A stretch of DNA of 64,000 nucleotides from an uncultured Sphingomonadaceae bacterium (GTDB lineage: Bacteria > Pseudomonadota > Alphaproteobacteria > Sphingomonadales > Sphingomonadaceae): assembly GCA_947494305.1 (NCBI GenBank), contig CANLUL010000001.1:1426001-1490000 (forward strand), in the 5' to 3' direction. Below are positions 33,761-35,316 of the stretch, one piece after another. A program made the translations under genes and the position numbers. The stretch's first letter is position 1, and each line of letters opens with the position of its first letter. The notes beneath the pieces were generated by a model that did no database searches, had not been told where the DNA came from, and saw only the letters and a list, made by a program, of their open reading frames with translations.

Positions 33761-33800
33761 TAAAACGAAAAACGGGAGCTCATCCGAAGATAAGCTCCCG
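33761..33800 (-). terminator. Intrinsic terminator with cUUCGg tetraloop
   Basis: 12-bp stem (one T-G) closing a UUCG loop, followed on minus strand by TTTTTCGTTTT. Confidence 0.88.
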
Positions 33801-34030
33801 CTGCGCCTCACTTGGGGCCGCTTTCCGCTTGCGCTTCCGGCTTCCGCTTCTTTGGCGTCGGGTTTCCGGGCCAGTATCTGTTTTCTGTTCTCCACATTTC
33901 GGCTTGCGCTTCGATGCTTCGGTTTCCAACACATGCTGGTCCAGTCACCTGATGATTGCTGTCTCTCTGTTCCATTCCGGCCGAAGCCTTCACTTTCCAG
34001 TCTTCTTTCAACCATCCATTGAAAGATCAT
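33761..34030 (-). ncRNA. Candidate structured ncRNA (or short mRNA) ending in a very strong intrinsic terminator
   Basis: Minus strand: GGCTTCGGCC hairpin, two GAAGCGCAAGC motifs, terminal CGGGAGCTTATC-TTCG-GATGAGCTCCCG-TTTTTCGTTTT; a 67-codon ORF from TTG 34011 is an alternative. Confidence 0.4.
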
Positions 34031-34192
34031 TCTATCATATTTGCATATAACAAATTGGTCGTTTCAATCATCTTTGTGCTTTTATCTCTCCCCAACGGGT
34101 CATTGCTGACTGGTCGCCGGTTGTAAGCAAATGCCTTCCGATGAATTGGTTATGACTCGAAGGTCCGAGTCGGACCTAGTAGAAAAACCCGA

Positions 34193-34249
34193 GTTATCCA
34201 CAGGCAATGAAGTTAGCGGTGGAAAAACCAGGGGGATGTGGTGGATAAC
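34193..34249. repeat. 9-bp inverted repeat GTTATCCAC...GTGGATAAC (contains one exact DnaA-box-like TTATCCACA)
   Basis: Arms at 34193-34201 and 34241-34249; separate palindrome GGTCCGAGTCGGACC at 34162-34176. Confidence 0.6.
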
Positions 34250-34275: not shown

Positions 34276-34369
34276 GTCCGGCCCCACTTGATCGGGAGGG
34301 GATAGTAAGGGGACCGGACCATCGAAACGATCCCGGCATCTTGGGAGGAGGATGCGCGCCGGGGTCGTT
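34276..34369 (-). ncRNA. Tandem hairpins with C-rich anti-SD loops (candidate sRNA / 3'UTR element)
   Basis: Minus-strand loops CUCCUCCCAA (34341-34350) and ...CCCCUCCC... (within 34286-34308), each closed by a 10-12 bp GC-rich stem. Confidence 0.5.
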
Positions 34370-34380
34370 AAACTAATGCC

Positions 34381-34455
34381 TTAAACCTGAACTGTATTCA
34401 GCAAGATGATGCTGCTCATGCTCAGGGCGGCAACTATATTGAAAAGCGTCTTCAT
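34381..34455 (-). CDS. Candidate 24-aa hydrophobic microprotein MKTLFNIVAALSMSSIILLNTVQV
   Basis: Strong SD AAAAGGAGAAATCCC-ATG; single hydrophobic segment; below the ORF track cutoff. Confidence 0.55.
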   Translation of the reverse strand: MKTLFNIVAALSMSSIILLNTVQV

Positions 34456-34632
34456 GGGATTTCTCCTTTTGATTAACGCCAGTCAAACATTCCTTTTCCT
34501 GTTCACTTGTTATGGTGAAATGGTCTTCAAACAGTTAAGTTTCAATTGAAAACGGAGTTCAATGAGTTGCATTATTTGCAAGCGCTGAAAACGGCCTACA
34601 AAGAGTCATTCTTAGCTAAGAGCTTGATTTAT

Positions 34633-35316
34633 CTAGAATATGCCCTTGAGCAGCTTTTTTCCACGGTCCAACGGATTGCGGCGGAAGTTTGACTCTTCCC
34701 GTCCAATATAGGTGAATATGCCATCCATGGCCTGATCCTTGACGCTGTCGGTCAGTCTATCCCGGGAAATATCCATACCGCCCAATCGCGCGAGAGAAGA
34801 GATCGATCCCAGCCGTTCTACCTGTTTAAAGGCACCAAGATCACCCAAGGCGGATTCAATTAAAGGACGCACCTTGTTGCCCAATTCTACACCGGCCGTT
34901 TTTCGGAGATATTGTGAACCAGCCGTATCGCCTCCGGTCACTATTCCAAGCCCGTCGGTCAGCGTCAAACCGTCAATCGCCGAACGAAAAACCGGTTTGG
35001 CGGTCAATGCCGCCTGCCCAGCTGCGCTGTTCAACGTACGCGTAATATCTCCCGTCAATCCGGCTTTGCTTGTAAAACGCAATATTTTGGTCGCTCGTTT
35101 CAATGGTCCTGGCAACAAGATACGGACGGCCTTATCCGCATAAAAGGCGCCAGGCTCCCCAAGCTTGTCCAAAGCATTATCCGAAGCGTTTCCAAGCAAG
35201 CTCTTTAGCCCCTTAGACTGCGCAAAAGCCGGTTGTGCGATGAACGGAACCGTTCCCATCCCACTCAGGATAATACCCGATTTCAAAAAAACTCTTCTGC
35301 TGGTTTCATGTGTCAT
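34633..35316 (-). CDS. DUF4197 domain-containing exported protein
   Basis: Tat-like signal (SRRVFLKSG), GLKSLLGNASDNALDKL, KDQAMDGIFTYIGREESNFRRNP. Confidence 0.85.
   Translation of the reverse strand: MTHETSRRVFLKSGIILSGMGTVPFIAQPAFAQSKGLKSLLGNASDNALDKLGEPGAFYADKAVRILLPGPLKRATKILRFTSKAGLTGDITRTLNSAAGQAALTAKPVFRSAIDGLTLTDGLGIVTGGDTAGSQYLRKTAGVELGNKVRPLIESALGDLGAFKQVERLGSISSLARLGGMDISRDRLTDSVKDQAMDGIFTYIGREESNFRRNPLDRGKKLLKGIF

Follow-up and report, generated by a model that had tools for sequence, protein, structure and literature searches.

The window analysed here, a stretch of 64,000 nucleotides, carries on its minus strand a short open reading frame (ORF) followed by two hairpins, with a large structured RNA just downstream. 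The first-pass annotation had described GC-rich stem-loops in tandem on this strand at 34276-34369, 11 nt past the stop codon of a 24-aa ORF. Direct reading of the sequence bears this out, with an 11-nt spacer (34380-34370) between the ORF stop and stem-loop 1. In the order of the minus strand the features are as follows.

34633-35316, minus strand: gene for a DUF4197 protein, the upstream neighbour (Pfam PF13852, E 4.4e-45)
34566-34581, no strand assigned: palindrome TTGCAAATAATGCAAC, conserved in the 30-locus alignment, a possible regulator site
34518-34545, minus strand: candidate promoter TTGAAAC ... GACCATTT, its spacing constant across the genus in the alignment
34439-34486, minus strand: candidate leader hairpin, UUGA-NN-GGCGUU with AACGCU-UU-UCAA inside the ORF, nearly invariant
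34381-34455, minus strand: 24-aa ORF MKTLFNIVAALSMSSIILLNTVQV, hydrophobic, with an AAGGAG Shine-Dalgarno sequence
34326-34369, minus strand: hairpin 1, loop motif CCUCCUCCC at 34351-34343
34276-34319, minus strand: hairpin 2, loop motif CCCCUCCC at 34301-34294
34154-34248, no strand assigned: conserved block, the probable promoter region of the large RNA, with DnaA-box-like TTATCCACC, TTTTCCACC and TGTGGATAA and GANTC sites (GACTC, GAGTC)
33762-34168, minus strand: large structured noncoding RNA, roughly 400 nt, 18 helices and 92 pairs
33771-33802, minus strand: intrinsic terminator of the large RNA, GGGAGC stem and T-run, with a TTCG loop in many relatives

The DUF4197 gene is also found directly upstream in the relatives inspected (L002 and L066). 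The ORF is 24 aa long in all 30 aligned loci and begins with M(K/R)TLFN. Its third codon positions are the most variable and its second the least, and substitution rates average 0.12 for dN and 0.58 for dS. The constant length and a dN/dS of about 0.21 show that the ORF is genuine, and it is under purifying selection. Searches with the peptide in Pfam and NCBIfam gave no convincing family match, and the earlier statement that the upstream ORF is not recognisably DUF1127 was correct in that it has no Pfam match.

The stem of hairpin 1 is present as first described, with one C-A mismatch, but the 10-nt loop assigned to it is not, the predicted loop being larger. The two-hairpin stretch folds with -39.1 kcal/mol (z = -2.7), and 3 of 200 shuffled sequences fold equally well; with the ORF and the leader included the z-score is -4.5 and none of 200 shuffles is as good. 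Folding by itself is thus moderately above chance, and the decisive argument against chance is evolutionary.

The DNA search covered the source genome and 60 relatives. Of the 33 Parasphingorhabdus (Sphingomonadaceae) genomes, 31 have the hairpin locus, among them all 25 complete ones; the two genomes without it are drafts, 67-80% complete. Among the 60 relatives, no locus was found outside the genus at the DNA level. The genus was identified by a pattern scan of named genomes, which matched Parasphingorhabdus flavimaris as well as strains filed under Sphingorhabdus or Sphingomonadales. Across 30 homologous loci 97.8% of the pair cells in the hairpins are standard pairs, and 11 of the 24 pairs have two-sided compensatory changes; in shuffles the number is 2.9, and none of 500 had as many. 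Controls with slid partners gave 1-9 two-sided pairs, and counted as cells the comparison is 28 for the real pairing against 3 to 15 for the slid ones. The pair cells include 73 G-U and 5 C-A, therefore the minus-strand RNA is the strand that selection sees. The hairpins are real minus-strand RNA structures.

A functional plus-strand RNA, whose GGGAGGAGG loops would bind either the 16S anti-Shine-Dalgarno or a protein of the CsrA/RsmA type, is hardly credible: inverted repeats fold on either strand and GGA-bearing loops would be present there, but the G-U excess reflects pairs kept on the minus strand, which also carries the ORF and its Shine-Dalgarno sequence. GGA-bearing loops are the signature of CsrA. 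Titration of CsrA-like proteins, which the annotation had offered as one function, is unlikely, because the minus-strand loops lack GGA and the triplets would be on the plus strand, disfavoured by the same asymmetry.

In about 27 of the 30 loci, loop 1 retains CUCCUCCC over a stem that varies; L012, L027 and L030 are the exceptions. For loop 2, about half of the genus has CCCCUCCC and the rest a AUAUCCCCCUC-like sequence, and this drift means that it is at least not a strict anti-Shine-Dalgarno. The proposal of anti-Shine-Dalgarno loops is supported, with loop 1 strong and the degenerate loop 2 weak. Non-conserved loops and a plus-strand RNA had been named as grounds against it; loop 1 is kept, and the G-U asymmetry favours the minus strand.

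A minus-strand ORF and tandem hairpins that are conserved in this way are probably functional. By analogy, the locus is rather likely to be a 3'UTR-type anti-Shine-Dalgarno RNA gene that works like the CcsR/cuckoo or ar14 (NfeR1) RNAs. The ORF, the structure, the coding strand and the conservation are computational results; transcription, processing and target pairing are inferred. A single minus-strand transcript would include the ORF of the 24-aa peptide, followed by the two stem-loops in the 3' untranslated part. The hairpins would then be freed or exposed by processing, probably through RNase E, and their C/U-rich loops, chiefly CCUCCUCCC of hairpin 1, would base-pair with the purine-rich ribosome-binding sites on other mRNAs, whose translation would thereby be blocked. 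An unrelated ORF would replace DUF1127, and one strong loop would be combined with one weak loop. Duplex-energy pairing scores against ribosome-binding sites were unspecific and gave no coherent target set.

The hairpins might have no other role than to end or protect the peptide's mRNA, as terminator and 3' stabiliser, with C/U loops that have no partner. In several relatives (e.g. L004, L007, L008 and L016) a T-run comes after hairpin 2, which looks like a terminator there, and its degenerate loop fits such a role; in the source genome no clear terminator follows it. This explanation is unlikely because few parts are as well conserved as loop 1, whereas the loops of plain terminators vary freely. 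Hairpin 1 moreover has no T-run, and similar loops recur in other 3'UTRs.

Upstream of the ORF, the candidate leader hairpin encloses the Shine-Dalgarno sequence and the start codon, and codons 3 to 6 hardly vary at their third positions. No covariation was found among the aligned loci, the support for the pairing being sequence invariance, and for this reason a translation switch is kept as a candidate. The searched part of the source genome has a single copy of the leader block GGAAAAG..ATGTTTGA. An EcfG promoter (GGAAC-N16-CGTT) was considered within it and rejected, since the block reads GGAAAA-N-CGTT; in EcfG promoters of Sphingopyxis the AAC triplet is almost invariant (PMC7083833). The TTGAAAC-GACCATTT element tentatively resembles an RpoH promoter, and a comparable layout, CTTGAA-N14-CACCATAT, lies upstream of lon in the source genome. 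No RpoH-like layout was seen at groES and dnaK in the same genome, hence the RpoH reading stays tentative. The palindrome, GTTGCA-N5-TGCAAC in relatives, is upstream of this candidate promoter.

These upstream elements bear on the idea that the locus acts through its peptide, a small membrane protein that the leader hairpin may control, with 3' hairpins that regulate their own mRNA through its AAGGAG. The peptide is conserved and strictly 24 aa, the nearly invariant leader can enclose the start site, and CUCCU can pair with AAGGAG. The self-pairing would be short, however, 5-6 nt as against the 8-9-nt motif kept in loop 1, and we regard this explanation as quite improbable.

In Rhodobacter sphaeroides, RNase E releases CcsR1-4 from the 3'UTR of the DUF1127 gene ccaF1, which has an RpoHI/RpoHII promoter in front of it, and CcsR-like RNAs of alphaproteobacteria often adjoin short DUF1127 genes (PMC10253847, PMC8625941). 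The present locus resembles the ccaF1-CcsR operon and other CcsR/cuckoo loci (RF02791; CIN1 loci) in having a small ORF followed by tandem hairpins in one (here presumed) transcript, the CCUCCUCCC loop (here in hairpin 1) and a possible RpoH-type promoter. It differs in its unrelated ORF in place of DUF1127, in having two hairpins instead of four RNAs, and in its second loop, which is not CCUCCUCCC, whereas CcsR/cuckoo RNAs carry that motif in each loop. Similar CCUCCUCCC motifs are found in every hairpin loop of SmelA075 and SmelA099 (PMC3927594).

The ar14 family (RF02344, Sinorhizobium) shares tandem hairpins, anti-Shine-Dalgarno loops and variable stems with this locus, but has three hairpins each with CCUCCUCCC, compared with two hairpins and one perfect motif here. 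Its member NfeR1 uses CCUCCUCCC loops to silence mRNAs and, unlike the RNA described here, has an RpoD-type promoter of its own (PMC10746234). CC1840 (RF01521, Caulobacter) has the same two-hairpin layout and a C-rich loop 1. No match to RF00519, the SisA-D/MmgR family, was found at the hairpin locus, and these RNAs are not known to have an ORF-plus-tandem-hairpin layout. SisA-D/MmgR (aR8, suhB) are likewise alphaproteobacterial sRNAs with an anti-Shine-Dalgarno-like 10-mer (PMC12559287).

When all 4227 Rfam models were searched, no family reached its cut-off at the hairpin locus. The sub-threshold matches were CC1840, ar14 and CcsR1 only, all with C-rich anti-Shine-Dalgarno-like loops. CC1840 had the best raw score (20.2 bits, gathering threshold 50), followed by ar14 (19.9 against 58.8); the ar14 cut-off was reached by none of 33 genomes of the genus and also by none of 14 control genomes. 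The covariance search with a cuckoo model, proposed in the annotation as a check, gave 13.7 bits for CcsR1 against a threshold of 65.3. DUF1127 (PF06568) was sought in 21 genomes, from the genus and from sampled families of the order, and found in none; the E. coli control was positive. Without DUF1127 and with scores below the cut-offs, the locus is therefore cuckoo-like in its presumed working, and membership is not established. The original assignment to the CcsR/cuckoo type is thus retained for the small ORF, the tandem hairpins and the anti-Shine-Dalgarno loop, but not for the family itself, given the scores, the missing DUF1127 and loop 2. Classical double CCUCCUCCC tandems gave one match in 201 Sphingomonadaceae genomes, no excess over the reversed control.

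Outside the genus, a model of the hairpins (R1) gave only weak matches, at most 26.6 bits. A few of these (L036, L038, L043, L044 and L054) are independent hairpins with CUCCUCCC loops, L036, L038, L043 and L054 being from other genera of the order; the remaining ones are terminators or coding sequence.

The large RNA downstream has no reading frame common to all sequences of the genus in the alignment. Its structure was derived with RNAalifold from 20 related sequences, the same alignment on which it is scored. In these, 97.4% of the cells pair, with 155 G-U and 16 C-A cells, and, for a structure scored on its own alignment, two-sided changes occur in 33 of 92 pairs, against 16.0 in shuffles (0 of 500 as many) and 6 to 14 with slid partners. 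A single sequence folds with z = -3.5. Rfam gave nothing beyond chance here even at E = 10, and RNase P RNA is excluded as an identity, as it is encoded at C1:987653 (299.9 bits). A model of the 3' domain matches all 25 complete genomes of the genus with 122-171 bits and none of about 246 genomes from other genera. On the modelled structure, this RNA appears to be a candidate new family, and would add to a short list of large structured RNAs in bacteria whose function is unknown. It was close to the hairpins wherever one examined stretch covered both. The hairpin RNA and the large RNA have a 202-aa antisense ORF between them in L002 and are therefore separate units. Neither GC skew nor box clustering supports a replication origin at the DnaA-box-like block, and the skew places it at neither origin nor terminus.

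Taken together, the two units may form a genus-specific island of two RNA genes, a tentative interpretation that we hold to be quite possible. The hairpin RNA with its 24-aa peptide would have an origin separate from that of the cuckoo loci linked to DUF1127, and the RNA of about 400 nt would found a new family, possibly under cell-cycle control through the DnaA-box-like and GANTC sites. The locus shows the design of a small ORF with anti-Shine-Dalgarno hairpins in a lineage where DUF1127 was not found, which lets one ask whether selection keeps the peptide, the hairpins or their coupling.

Related hairpins are present elsewhere. The whole source genome has 11 CCUCCUCCC sites, several of them in hairpin loops outside genes. 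A census of about 80% of the genome (2.70 of 3.35 Mb) found four further hairpins with a CUCCUCC loop, one intergenic (C1:516033) and three after stop codons. According to the translated sequences, these three follow genes for an ammonium transporter (C1:193897), an EF-hand protein (C1:865561) and a fasciclin-domain protein (C2:351752). The enrichment is modest, with 5 hairpins against 0 to 4 for non-overlapping permuted motifs of the same composition. If several 3'UTRs share a mimic of the ribosome site, translation control by a shared loop may be a network property of the genome. The hairpin in the fasciclin-gene 3'UTR is not conserved at the DNA level. In the ammonium-transporter 3'UTR (C1:193890-194007, plus strand; z = -5.1) the hairpin is accompanied by a second CUCCU stem-loop and by a terminator, and this block is 91-93% identical over about 110 nt in several genomes of the genus, where the coding end no longer aligns. 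It scores 18.7 with the ar14 model in the source genome, below the threshold, and the ar14 match of three relatives is at this same place.
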